Source: Oscillospiraceae bacterium | Lineage (GTDB): Bacteria; Bacillota; Clostridia; Oscillospirales; Oscillospiraceae | NCBI GenBank assembly: GCA_021771635.1 | Contig: JAETOQ010000001.1 | Location: 62,001-126,000, forward strand | Reading direction: 5' to 3' | Length of the DNA stretch: 64,000 bases | Shown: in pieces, positions 45,303 through 51,788 of the stretch | How the letters are laid out: each line of letters begins with the position of its first letter | How positions within the stretch are numbered: position 1 is the first letter of the stretch | Program-made: the position numbers and the translations under genes | The notes under the pieces: generated by a model | Database searches by the model: none | The model's input: the letters and a program-made list of their open reading frames with translations, nothing else | What the model was told of the DNA's origin: nothing

Positions 45303-45755
45303 TTAAAGCATCTCCTTGATCTCCTCGCAGAAGATCGCCGCGGACTCCGTATCCTGCATCAGCAGAAACGCCGTGTCGTCCCCCGCCAGGGAACCCACCA
45401 TATAGGTGATGTTCATATTATCCAGGGCGGAGCAGGCGGCGCTGGCCAGCCCCGGCATGGTCTTGATGACCACGATGTTCTGGGCATAGGCGATGCTGGT
45501 GATGCTCTCACGGAAGATGGTCCGCAGCTTCTCCGCAAAGTTCAGCTTGGTCCGGTTTCCGGAGACCGCATACTTATATACGCCCTGCCCAACCGGCTCC
45601 TTGATCAGGTGCATCTGCTTGATGTCCCGGGAGATGGTGGCCTGGGTGCTGCTGATGCCCCGCTCCTGAAGGCGGGCCAAAAGCTGTTCCTGTGTTTCGA
45701 TATTTTCCTGGGAAATGATCTCCAGGATCATGGATTGACGGTCATTTTTCATCAT
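45303..45755 (-). CDS. argR: arginine repressor ArgR
   Basis: ILEIISQENIETQEQLLARLQERGISSTQATISRDIKQMHLIK. Confidence 0.96.
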   Translation of the reverse strand: MMKNDRQSMILEIISQENIETQEQLLARLQERGISSTQATISRDIKQMHLIKEPVGQGVYKYAVSGNRTKLNFAEKLRTIFRESITSIAYAQNIVVIKTMPGLASAACSALDNMNITYMVGSLAGDDTAFLLMQDTESAAIFCEEIKEML

Positions 45756-46626: not shown

Positions 46627-47447
46627 AGGCCGCTCCCCTCTCCGTGCTCCTTCAATACCTGGTGGGATTCCTCCACCAGGGCCTTCAGATCAAATTCCAT
46701 GGGCAGCCATTCGCCCTTCTCCAGATATCCCAGGTATTCAATATTCCCCTCCGGTCCGCGGATTGGAGAATAAGTCAGCCCAAGAACTGTAAAGCCGGAT
46801 TCCTTTGCATGTTCCAGGAAGTGCTCCAGCACCTCCAGATGGACTGCCGGGTCCCGGACCACGCCCTTTTTGCCCACTTTTTCCTTTCCCGCCTCAAACT
46901 GGGGCTTTACCAGGCAGGCCGCGTGGCCGCCGTCTTTCAGCAGGCCGCACAGAGGCGGCAGGATCAGCTTCAGGGAGATGAAGCTCACATCCACCGACGC
47001 AAAGTCCAGTTCGTCGGGGATCTGCTCATGTGTCAGGTAGCGGGCGTTGGTCCGCTCCATGCAGACCACACGGGGGTCCTCCCGCAGCTTCCAGGCCAGC
47101 TGTCCGTAGCCGACATCCACGGAATAGACCTTGGACGCGCCGTTTTGCAGCATGCAGTCGGTAAAGCCCCCGGTGGAGGCGCCGACGTCGCCGCATACCG
47201 CTCCCGCCAAGGTGATGGGGAACGAGGCCATGGCTTTTTCCAGCTTCAGCCCGCCCCGGCTGACGTATTTCAGGGCATTGCCCCGGACCTCGATCTCCGC
47301 GTCATTGGGGACGGCGGTGCCGGGCTTGTCCACCCGCTGGCCCTTCACGAATACCAGACCGCTCATGATGGTGGCCTGGGCCCTCTGACGGCTCTCCTGC
47401 AGGCCGCGCTCCACCAGCAGCACATCCAGCCGCGTCTTATTTGCCAT
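46623..47447 (-). CDS. TlyA family rRNA methyltransferase / S4 protein
   Basis: MANKTRLDVLLVERGLQESRQRAQATIMSGLVFVKGQRVDKPG; DVGASTGGFTDCMLQNGASKVYSVDVGYGQLAWKLR. Confidence 0.95.
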   Translation of the reverse strand: MANKTRLDVLLVERGLQESRQRAQATIMSGLVFVKGQRVDKPGTAVPNDAEIEVRGNALKYVSRGGLKLEKAMASFPITLAGAVCGDVGASTGGFTDCMLQNGASKVYSVDVGYGQLAWKLREDPRVVCMERTNARYLTHEQIPDELDFASVDVSFISLKLILPPLCGLLKDGGHAACLVKPQFEAGKEKVGKKGVVRDPAVHLEVLEHFLEHAKESGFTVLGLTYSPIRGPEGNIEYLGYLEKGEWLPMEFDLKALVEESHQVLKEHGEGSGL

Positions 47448-49296
47448 ATCCCATCGCCTCCCGTACTGCCGCCGCCACAGCGGCGGCGTCCAGGCCAAAG
47501 CTGTGTTCCAGCTGGCTGATGCTGCCCTCCGGGGCAAAGGTCTTTCCAAGGTTTTTCAAGATCAGCTTTTTCGGTGCCCGGCCATGCTCCGCCAGGATGG
47601 CGGCCAGCCGCTGGCCCACACACCCGGGGCCGAAAGAATCCTCTAACACCAATATGATATCCCGGCCGCCCAGACAGCCGCAGACCGTCTCATGGTCCAG
47701 CGGTGCGATCTGGTTCAGCTTTACGACCTCCGCCCGGATGCCGTCCTTTGCCAGCAGGTCTGCCGCCGCCAGCAGATTATTCACCATAACGCCGTAGCCC
47801 GCCAGCGTCACATCGCCGCCCTCCCGCAGACAGGCCGCGGGCTTGTCCGACGTATCCGCCCGGAATGCCCCTTCCCCGCCCCGGGGATAGCGGACCGCCA
47901 CGGGGCCGTCCAGCTGGAATAATGCCCGCCGCAGCATGGACCGCAGCTCCGCGAAGCTGGCCGGACACAGCACGGTGAACCCCGGAATGGTGCAGAGGAA
48001 CAGCGGATCAAAGCAGCCGTGGTGTGTCTCGCCGTCGGCGCCCACCAGGCCCGCCCGGTCCACGCCCAGCACCACATGGAGCCGCTCCAGAGCCACGTCG
48101 TGGATCAGCATGTCGTAGCCCCGCTGCAAAAAGGTGGAGTAGACCGCGAACACCGGCAGCATCCCCTGGCTGGCAAGGCCCGCCGCCATGGACACACCGT
48201 GGCCCTCGGCGATGGCCACATCGAAGAACCGCTCCGGAAACTCCCTGGCAAAGCCGGTCAGTCCGGTGCCGTCCGCCATGGCGGCGGTGATGGCGCAGAC
48301 CCGGCTGTCCTCCGCCGCGCAGTCCGCCAGCGTCTTGCCGAAAACGGAGGAAAAGCTCTCTCCGCCCGGTTTTTTCAAAAGGCCCGTCTCGGGATCGAAG
48401 GGGCTGATGCCGTGGAATTTGCCGGGATTCTGCTCCGCGAAGGAGTACCCCTTTCCCTTTACCGTGTTCACATGGACCACCACGGGGCCGTTCAACTCCT
48501 TGGCCCACTCCAGCACATCGCACAGGCGGGGCAGGTCGTGACCGTCCACAGGCCCCAGGTAGGTGAATCCCATGTCTTCGAACAGCGTGCTGCCGGGCCA
48601 AAGCGTCTTTTTCAAAGAGGTCTTTACCCGGTGGTTGAAGCGGTACAGCCTGCTTTCCATGGGCCGTTTGCCAAACAGGCTCCGGTACCACTTTTTAAAA
48701 TGGTAGTAGGCCGGCTTGCTCCGCAGGCGGCTCAGGTGGGACGGCATGGCCCCCACGTTGGGGTTGATGGACATGCCGTTGTCATTCAGAATGACGATCA
48801 GCGGCTCCCGGGAGGCCCCTGCGTTGTTCAGCCCCTCATAGGCGAGGCCGCCGGTGAGGGCGCCGTCGCCGATCAGGGCCAGGACGCTGTAATCTTCTTT
48901 CTGTAAAGTCCTCGCCCTTGCCATTCCAAGCGCCACGGATACGGAATTGGACGCATGGCCCGCGATAAAGGCGTCATGCACGCTCTCATAGGGCTTTGGG
49001 AAGCCGGACAGGCCTCCGAACTGGCGGAGGGTGGAAAACAGCTCCTGCCGCCCGGTGAGGGCCTTGTGGACATAGCACTGGTGGCCCACGTCGAACACCA
49101 GCCGGTCTTTTTCCGTGTCGAACACCCGGTGGATGGCCACCGTCAGCTCCACCGCGCCCAGGTTGGAGGCCAGATGCCCCCCGGTCTGGGATACGTTTTG
49201 CACCAAAAACTCCCGCAGCTCCTGACAGAGCCGGGGCAGCTGCTCCTCTCCCAGCGCCTTGACGTCGGCGGGAGAGCGGATGCTTTCCAATATCAT
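47437..49296 (-). CDS. dxs: 1-deoxy-D-xylulose-5-phosphate synthase
   Basis: GGHLASNLGAVELTVAIHRVFDTEKDRLVFDVGHQCYVHKALTGR. Confidence 0.97.
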   Translation of the reverse strand: MILESIRSPADVKALGEEQLPRLCQELREFLVQNVSQTGGHLASNLGAVELTVAIHRVFDTEKDRLVFDVGHQCYVHKALTGRQELFSTLRQFGGLSGFPKPYESVHDAFIAGHASNSVSVALGMARARTLQKEDYSVLALIGDGALTGGLAYEGLNNAGASREPLIVILNDNGMSINPNVGAMPSHLSRLRSKPAYYHFKKWYRSLFGKRPMESRLYRFNHRVKTSLKKTLWPGSTLFEDMGFTYLGPVDGHDLPRLCDVLEWAKELNGPVVVHVNTVKGKGYSFAEQNPGKFHGISPFDPETGLLKKPGGESFSSVFGKTLADCAAEDSRVCAITAAMADGTGLTGFAREFPERFFDVAIAEGHGVSMAAGLASQGMLPVFAVYSTFLQRGYDMLIHDVALERLHVVLGVDRAGLVGADGETHHGCFDPLFLCTIPGFTVLCPASFAELRSMLRRALFQLDGPVAVRYPRGGEGAFRADTSDKPAACLREGGDVTLAGYGVMVNNLLAAADLLAKDGIRAEVVKLNQIAPLDHETVCGCLGGRDIILVLEDSFGPGCVGQRLAAILAEHGRAPKKLILKNLGKTFAPEGSISQLEHSFGLDAAAVAAAVREAMGYGK

Positions 49297-49315: not shown

Positions 49316-49870
49316 TCAGCGGTGGAAGAGATGCAGGAAGCGGCCCGCCCAATAGACCACCTTGGTGCTCTGCTTCATGGCAAAGGTCTTGGACAGCGCC
49401 TTGCCTCCGATGGTCAGGCCGGACACCAGTGCGGTGACGCCCACGGAGATCAGCACGGTCTGGGTGTTCAGGGCCTTTTGCAGCTGTGTCACGATCACCG
49501 CGCCGGTGGCGCCGCTGACGATGCCGCAGATGTCGCCCACCACGTCGTTGCAGACGCTGGAGACATGGCTGGCATTGCGGAGCAGGCCTAATGCCTCCCT
49601 GGCGCCCTTTTCCCTGTGGGACGCCATGGAGTGAAAGGGCTTGGGGTCCGCCGCCGTCACAGCCACGCCGATAACGTCAAACACGATGCCAAGCCCGATA
49701 AACAGGGCCAAAATCAAAAGAGCGACTGCCACGCCCGCGCCCGAGAGCATCGACTGGGATGCCAGGCTCAGCACCGCGGACAGGGCGACCGCCATCAAAA
49801 AGACCGTAAAAGCCCACCGATATGGAGAGGACGCGCCTCCCTTTCTCTCTTCCTTTTGTGTTTTTTTCAA
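49316..49870 (-). CDS. oapA: OapA-like OLE-RNA-associated membrane protein (TTG start likely; ORF extends to 49903)
   Basis: multi-TM ~184 aa, CNDVVGDICG = D-x3-D motif, between OLE-like RNA and dxs; SD GGGAGG before TTG. Confidence 0.78.
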   Translation of the reverse strand: MKKTQKEERKGGASSPYRWAFTVFLMAVALSAVLSLASQSMLSGAGVAVALLILALFIGLGIVFDVIGVAVTAADPKPFHSMASHREKGAREALGLLRNASHVSSVCNDVVGDICGIVSGATGAVIVTQLQKALNTQTVLISVGVTALVSGLTIGGKALSKTFAMKQSTKVVYWAGRFLHLFHR

Positions 49871-50009
49871 ACAGGATACCTCCCACAGAGGGAAATTCTT
49901 CAAAAAAACGGCTGTTTACAGCCATTTTCGCGCCAGACGGCCTTTTGTGGGCCGCGGCTGAAACCAAATGTCTAAAAACTGCTAACCGGCGGCGGCAGAA
50001 AAAGTAAAT

Positions 50010-50637
50010 CTTACGGCTTAGGTACGGGTTGGATTTCCCCGCGGCGCACCTCTCGTTGCCGATGGAGGCGGTTCCCCCTTCGGCGCCGCAGTACCGTGTT
50101 GCCAGCGATACTACCCGATTGCCACTTAGTCCGCACTGCAATCCTTTTTCTGCCTCTTCTGAACAGCCTAGGTGATTTCCACCACAGTCCATCCGCTTCT
50201 TTAGCCTCTTTTGCAGACCGGGTTTCAAAGGGCGATCGCGGCTGACGCTCTGGCCAGAGCATAGCGCCGCGTTGTTCCCTCATCCACCCGCCCCACGCAA
50301 GGCAGGCTACGTCTGCACACAGCGTTACGGCCCCCAAAGGGACCGATGCACCGCATTGCAGGTTCACAATCTGCTTCGTACACAGGCCGGAAATACCACG
50401 TTGGGAGTACGTCTGTGCACAAGAACAGGTCTCCACGAAAACAGGGTCGGGTTGATCATGCCATTGTTCATCGCCCTGAGTCCGCAAGCGCGCGCAGCGC
50501 GCTTCCCCCCAGCACCCACCCAAAACTGGGCGTATCAAGCAGGCACCAGAGGTTTCATAGATGTGCCCTTCAGAGGATTTTTAGGCCCTCCCTCGGAAGC
50601 GGCGGATCTGACTAGAATACTGCGCCGCCGTTAGCGA
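50010..50637 (-). ncRNA. ole: OLE RNA (ornate large extremophilic RNA) candidate
   Basis: ~630 nt non-coding, own promoter, between ispA and a DxxxD membrane protein + dxs; dense hairpins. Confidence 0.85.
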
Positions 50638-50642
50638 GGTTT

Positions 50643-50671
50643 AGTATAGCACGGTTTTCATAAATATACAA
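50643..50671 (-). promoter_or_regulatory. sigma-A-type promoter for the OLE RNA
   Basis: TTGTAT (50666-50671) - 17 nt - TATACT (50643-50648). Confidence 0.8.
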
Positions 50672-50802
50672 CATATTCCGTATATACAAATTGTGAATTT
50701 TTTCGGACAGGCCCATGGGCCGTTTGTCATAACGTCCATTGCTCTGATCCTTAACGGCGTCTTTATGCCGTTTCCTCCCTGCGCCTGCTACACGAAATTG
50801 AA

Positions 50803-50826
50803 ACCTGGCGTTGATCAACGCCAGGT
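50803..50826. repeat. perfect 24-bp palindrome 3' of ispA
   Basis: ACCTGGCGTTGATCAACGCCAGGT. Confidence 0.8.
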
Positions 50827-50909
50827 CTCGTAAGGTTTTATATTTTCAGTCTGCTCAGGAACTCTGGAACTTCGAGCTTATTTCCTGTTGCACTGAGTTT
50901 GACAATTCA

Positions 50910-51788
50910 CTATTGATCCCGCTCCGCCAGGCTGTCCGCCAGGGCGGAGAGAAAGCCATCGGCGTCATAGGCGGCCACCGCCGCCTTGGCCCTCTCCGTG
51001 CAGTCCCGGACGGCGGCGGTGCAGCCCTCCAGGCCCAGCAGGTCCACGAAAGTCACTTTGCCCTCCTCGGCGTCAGAGCCGATGGGCTTGCCGAAAGTGG
51101 CTTCATCGCCCACCACGTCCAGCATATCGTCCCGGATCTGGAAGGCCATGCCCAATTGATAGGCGTATGCCTCCGCCGCGTTCCGCAGGGCGTCTTCCCC
51201 GCCGGCGGCGGCCACGCCCAGCTTGCAGGCGCCGGCGATCATGGCCCCGGTCTTCAGCCGGTGGACCTCCGTCAGCTCCTCCCGCGTCTTCGGCGCGTGG
51301 AGGGTGTCCAGCACCTGGCCGCCCACCATGCCGTCGGCTCCGGCGGCCTGCGCCAGGATCAGAGCGCAGTCGGCTCTCTGATCCGCCGTCAATCCGGGGG
51401 CCGTCAGGATCAGGCGGTACGCCTCCGGCTGGAGGGCATCCCCCGCCAGCACCGCCAGCGTCTCGCCGTAGACCTTGTGGTTGGTGGGCTTTCCCCGCCG
51501 GAGGTCGTCATCGTCCATACAGGGCAGGTCGTCGTGGATCAGAGAGTACGTATGCACCAGCTCCAGGGCGCAGGCCACGGGGACCGCCCCTTTCCAGTCC
51601 ATCCCCGCCAACCGTGCGAATTCCAGCGTCAGCACCGGGCGGATGCGCTTGCCTCCCGCCAGCAGGCTGTACCGCATGGACTCGTACAGGTCCTCCCAAT
51701 CGGTCTTTTTCGTGAACAGGCCGTCCAGATATGTCTCCACCGCCTGCCGGTATGCCCCGTACCTGGCGTCAAATACCGCTTTCTCCAT
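50910..51788 (-). CDS. ispA: polyprenyl synthetase (farnesyl diphosphate synthase)
   Basis: LLAGGKRIRPVLTLEFARLAG; LELVHTYSLIHDDLPCMDDDDLRRGKPTNHKVYGE. Confidence 0.97.
   Translation of the reverse strand: MEKAVFDARYGAYRQAVETYLDGLFTKKTDWEDLYESMRYSLLAGGKRIRPVLTLEFARLAGMDWKGAVPVACALELVHTYSLIHDDLPCMDDDDLRRGKPTNHKVYGETLAVLAGDALQPEAYRLILTAPGLTADQRADCALILAQAAGADGMVGGQVLDTLHAPKTREELTEVHRLKTGAMIAGACKLGVAAAGGEDALRNAAEAYAYQLGMAFQIRDDMLDVVGDEATFGKPIGSDAEEGKVTFVDLLGLEGCTAAVRDCTERAKAAVAAYDADGFLSALADSLAERDQ

Follow-up and report, generated by a model that had tools for sequence, protein, structure and literature searches.

A full-length OLE RNA in the isoprenoid operon of an Oscillospiraceae bacterium that also encodes its partners

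In this genome of the Oscillibacter/Dysosmobacter group, the region between ispA and oapA almost certainly encodes a genuine OLE RNA of the full-length type, set within an ole-oapA module. When the whole window (the 64,000-nucleotide stretch of DNA analysed here) was compared with Rfam using cmscan, the minus strand matched RF01071 (OLE) at 50644-49973 with 402.5 bits (E 9.1e-115), some 350 bits above the gathering score of 50 for this family. All model positions (1-616 of 616) were matched, this was the sole above-threshold Rfam match in the window, and a search of the genome (2.80 Mb in 170 contigs, 94.7% complete) found no second copy. The first-pass annotation had proposed an OLE RNA at this place, a reading that the covariance model bears out over its full length on the minus strand. 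The extent it gave, 50010-50671, locates the RNA correctly, but the end at 50010 falls about 30 nt short, since the helix that closes the RNA ends at 49981 and the model match at 49973. The transcript is predicted to run from about 50636 to 49978, that is, over some 650 nt.

The description of about 630 nt packed with hairpins and devoid of a convincing ORF also stands. Folding of the 668-nt strand yields -290.5 kcal/mol, compared with -257.7 +/- 6.5 for shuffled sequences (z -5.1). The longest ORFs (175 aa on the minus strand, 50011-50538, and 120 aa on the plus strand) overlap one another across several frames, as is expected in G+C-rich DNA, and conservation across the region tracks base pairs rather than codons. 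The copy could in principle be a decayed, non-functional remnant, given that its 402 bits lie below the 505 reached by the best family members and that ole has been lost from some genomes of the genus. Yet such a score is typical for the genus, where nearly all copies range from 323 to 411 bits, the model is matched without gaps in its coverage, and the conserved loops and helices, the promoter and oapA are all intact. Decay of this OLE copy at the sequence level is excluded, and we give a non-functional remnant practically no credence.

Conserved structure of the RNA

The OLE secondary structure is conserved by compensatory change. This was assessed on 71 OLE RNAs from relatives (Oscillibacter, Dysosmobacter, Oscillospiraceae and further family members) aligned with MAFFT, the pairs counted being those of the Rfam structure transferred onto the window sequence and of two added helices. 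In this alignment 87.9% of the cells are paired, 119 of the 176 pairs have changed on both sides and 1419 cells are two-sided. Controls in which the partners were slid by 1-3 columns gave 38-50% paired cells, 61-73 two-sided pairs and 275-370 two-sided cells, and shuffled alignments never attain the observed values of pairing or covariation. P7, P8, the long P9 and P13 are all present, with model positions 1-616 matched and the helices paired, so the RNA corresponds neither to variant 1 nor to variant 2. Those variants, from the gut symbionts TANB77 and RF39 respectively, are likewise OLE RNAs of uncultured gut bacteria (PMC11332333), but they are shortened, in P7-P9 or in P13, and most of their hosts are without OapB and OapC, whereas here all stems and both proteins are present.

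The RNA departs from the RF01071 consensus in two respects. One is a closing helix, not drawn by Rfam, that joins both ends of the RNA: on the minus strand, its 5' strand GCTAACGGCGGC (50635-50624) pairs with the 3' strand GCCGCCGGTTAGC (49993-49981), which is followed by AGTTTTT, in 12 bp with one bulged base. In duplex energy the true partners beat every shuffled pairing: their mean is -23.2 kcal/mol, compared with -18.3 +/- 0.37 when partners are swapped between species. The alignment of relatives contains compensatory switches, for instance from GCTAAGC/GCTTAGC to ACTGAACAG/CTGTTCAGT. The helix is only 66.5% paired in the covariation count, where the outer pairs score low, in part at least through misplacement of the ends by MAFFT. 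Since published OLE models include P1 (PMC12265935), the closing helix is probably already known and only missing from the Rfam drawing. In 36 of the 71 relatives a run of at least four T follows, no more than 32 nt from where its 3' strand begins (49993-49974 in the window). Judging from the sequence, the closing helix, including the RNA's own 5' end, could serve as a long-range terminator. The first-pass annotation had assigned the role of 3' closing stem to GCGGCGC/GCGCCGC, which turns out to be an internal helix (about 50089-50040); the stem-loops at 50040-50089 (minus strand) near the 3' end, delimited by the model match and covariation (helices 22-23), correspond by position to P12.2/P13, the OapB-binding region of OLE RNA (PMC9723947).

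The other departure is an extra hairpin that the first-pass annotation had pointed out, AAGCGCGC-TGC-GCGCGCTT (50504-50486, minus strand). It lies between the P5-like and P6-like stems and is an insertion with respect to the Rfam consensus. Of the 71 relatives, 63 have this hairpin and 8 lack it; it is 95.8% paired, and two-sided changes affect 7 of its 8 pairs.

OLE RNA has been reported to dimerise (PMC12286853), and the loop sequences of the dimer contacts are present here, on the minus strand. The A-rich loop CCTAAAAATCC of P4 (50585-50575), kept in nearly all 71 relatives, corresponds to the published dimer bridge B1. The loop CGCCCAG (50532-50526) is complementary to the CAATGGCA loop at 50466-50459; with names assigned by loop order, the two would match the published P5.1/P6.1 intermolecular kissing contact. 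Finally, the palindromic loop CTGGCCAG of L9.3 (50257-50250) contains the GGCC of the published symmetric kissing loop.

Operon context and protein partners

Pfam and NCBIfam confirm every gene of the order xseA-xseB-ispA-OLE-oapA-dxs-tlyA-nadK-argR-recN, as the first-pass annotation had listed it; tlyA was identified through its FtsJ/S4 domains, and nusB and an Asp23 gene lie further up. All on the minus strand, ispA (50910-51788) encodes a polyprenyl synthetase (PF00348, 193 bits), dxs occupies 47437-49296 (PF13292, 385 bits) and argR 45303-45755 (PF01316/PF02863, with TIGR01529 above its cut-off). A terminator-like hairpin, AGACCTGGCGTTGATCAACGCCAGGTTT, follows ispA (50801-50828, minus strand; pattern scan and fold). 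Another, GGCTG-TAAA-CAGCC-G-TTTTTTT, lies in the gap between OLE and oapA (49902-49923, minus strand) and was recognised by sequence and fold, the pattern scan leaving it unlisted. Among the related OLE-bearing loci, oapA and then dxs follow in all those with enough flank. In 53 loci ispA precedes ole; a search of 19 others, where the flank was long enough, did not find it.

The small polytopic membrane protein noted before dxs is OapA. The gene (49316-49870, minus strand) starts with TTG at 49870, preceded by a GGGAGG box, and encodes 184 aa with hydrophobic segments that fit four membrane helices and the motif DVVGD, an instance of the DxxxD that is the hallmark of OapA (PMC11332333). Its CNNM match (PF01595, 28.9 bits) is only just above the cut-off, a marginal score that is expected of an OapA. 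The NCBIfam search offered no family for OapA or OapB. The OapA proteins of named relatives, assigned to Oscillibacter, Dysosmobacter and Oscillospiraceae and in many cases of animal-gut origin, are up to 92% identical to it.

The remaining partners of the OLE ribonucleoprotein are encoded elsewhere in the genome, so that OapA, OapB, OapC and bS21 are all present; OapB and RpsU, which had been put forward as partners, were both found. OapB, a protein of 94 aa encoded between map and infA, is matched in the PDB by 7k9b, OLE-associated protein B (E 1.1e-7); it has no Pfam or NCBIfam match, and its identity rests on the PDB match and its position. The Pfam KOW matches were considered as OapB candidates and rejected, as they fall at two sites only, in frames of 178 and 109 aa that read as NusG and RplX. 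OapC (YbxF) is an L7Ae-type protein of 98 aa encoded between rpoC and rpsL that matches 4lck/3v7e (E 1e-10), and bS21 has 60 aa (80.8 bits). In other species OapC binds the k-turn of OLE (PMC9723947), bS21 binds OLE RNA (PMC12054373) and the placement of the RNA at the membrane depends on OapA (PMC12265935).

Promoter, candidate operator and losses of the module

The promoter of ole (50643-50671, minus strand) has the sequence that the first-pass annotation reported, a -35 TTGTAT (50671-50666) and a -10 TATACT (50648-50643) separated by 17 nt. This pair, which the pattern scanner did not list, is conserved among relatives, mostly at the same spacing.

A 21-bp operator-like element, TATACGGAATATGTTGTATAT (50664-50684, minus strand), overlaps the -35. 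It is conserved in ole loci and constitutes a single site in its own genome at up to three mismatches. Of 90 ole loci, 37 carry TATACNGAATATNTTGNATAT with at most one mismatch, while locally shuffled sequences never come below 4 mismatches, a comparison biased toward the motif in that it was derived from these same loci, with close kin counted separately. In the Oscillibacter clade the element overlaps the -35 and ends 40-41 nt before GCAGTAT; in a second clade, which has a separate -35, its position is 13-15 nt further upstream (54-56 nt). As the block shifts relative to the promoter, a bound protein appears favoured over promoter elements alone. We tentatively propose, giving it somewhat less than even credence, that in Oscillospiraceae TATACNGAATATNTTGNATAT is an operator dedicated to the ole promoter and bound by a protein; it would govern ole-oapA, and dxs by read-through, and would tie expression of the OLE particle to a signal.

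ArgR was considered as the binder, since argR belongs to the operon, yet the single genomic site argues against a shared regulon and this candidate is not supported. The element does not appear to have the 18-bp spacing of ARG boxes. An unpublished link between ArgR and OLE has been mentioned (PMC12265935). A regulon sharing the element was likewise rejected on the strength of the one site in its own genome. Among relatives, only two sites with up to one mismatch have no adjacent OLE, and both are this same locus after the loss of ole (L121 and L125); the sites that have two mismatches and lack OLE appear fortuitous, the genes having been checked at L128 only. Upstream of distant ole loci (L060, L091 and others) there are repeated TGAATATTCA-like half sites spaced by 9-12 bp, which may represent a diverged version of this operator.

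The two losses occurred in genomes of the same genus, G132 (L121:1501-1640) and G124 (L125:1501-1732), in which ole and oapA are gone and the promoter and element lie directly before dxs; L121 retains ispA in front of the promoter. Neither genome is complete (71% and 76%), but the deletion junctions lie inside contigs. Two other apparent losses (G122 and G149) were set aside as probable assembly gaps, oapA being at a contig edge.

These loci bear on another reading of the region, namely that it acts in cis, as a leader or an attenuator regulating oapA-dxs, and is no functional RNA in its own right. The RNA does immediately precede oapA and dxs on their strand, with a terminator-like hairpin in between, and in G124 and G132 the promoter drives dxs directly once the RNA is lost. 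However, the full-length match is to OLE, an RNA that forms part of a membrane particle in other species (PMC12265935, PMC9723947), and its loss together with oapA fits an RNA-protein module. A cis-regulator is therefore very improbable, and a separate OLE RNA acting with OapA is the reading we retain.

OLE and MpfA in the family

OLE and the Mg2+ exporter MpfA are known to exclude each other across Bacillota (PMC11332333), and this exclusion is repeated within a single family. OLE is present in 34 and MpfA in 86 of the 121 genomes surveyed; MpfA is present in 7 of the 34 genomes with OLE and in 79 of the 87 without it (Fisher p=1e-13, kinship ignored). The replacement is not absolute, since 13 of the 55 OLE-bearing genomes of the genus carry both. 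MpfA was not detected in the genome studied here, in which no CorC_HlyC domain was found. As for the two genomes from which ole and oapA have disappeared, G124 encodes MpfA twice, and none was found in G132 (71% complete). In three loci (L138, L139/L008 and L019) an MpfA-type gene lies divergently just upstream of ole; in L138 (2978-4213) and L139 (2252-3511) it has the full CNNM-CBS-CorC_HlyC architecture and stands between ole and ispA. OapA is distantly related to the CNNM domain of the MpfA/CorC exporters and consists of the membrane domain alone.

The mechanism that we envisage follows that of other species. A sigma-70-type promoter of its own, situated shortly after ispA, would drive transcription of the RNA, which the 12-bp end-to-end helix closes and which adopts the conserved OLE structure. 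The RNA would most likely dimerise through its conserved loops, recruit OapA to sit at the membrane and be bound by OapB, OapC and bS21 at the known sites. Published work gives OLE a role under stress from Mg2+, cold and alcohol (PMC11332333, PMC12265935), and the particle may help the cell to withstand stress, above all an excess of Mg2+, as in Halalkalibacterium halodurans, acting in place of MpfA.

With its full-length structure, its own promoter, its position among isoprenoid genes upstream of oapA, its conserved dimer loops and the four partner proteins encoded, this copy resembles the OLE RNAs of H. halodurans and Clostridium, from which it differs in the operator-like element and in its host, a gut anaerobe in which no intact spo0A frame was found. 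The label of spore former given to this host is unsupported: in the genome (94.7% complete), the sole trace of Spo0A_C is a partial match with an in-frame TGA (L140:1050-1244, minus strand). OLE persists in this host though spo0A looks decayed. That ole has a promoter of its own has been published for B. halodurans (PMC9723947), and 2,822 OLE matches in Bacillota, gut clades included, were catalogued earlier (PMC11332333). As its own promoter, the neighbouring oapA and gut hosts are all published, the copy is an ordinary and sound addition to the known OLE class. What it contributes is a case from a gut anaerobe whose ole promoter is unusually conserved and some of whose relatives have lost ole naturally. 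None of the papers searched names both OLE RNA and Oscillibacter, which is weak evidence.

Few conserved bacterial RNAs of unknown chemistry are as large as OLE, and its presence in a group with cultured gut species would provide model organisms beyond the alkaliphiles. The divergent mpfA-ole neighbours and the mutual exclusion of the two systems offer ready comparisons for the Mg2+ hypothesis, the in-place deletions of ole-oapA constitute natural tests of the exchange between OLE and MpfA, and the candidate operator may give a handle on the signal that controls OLE.
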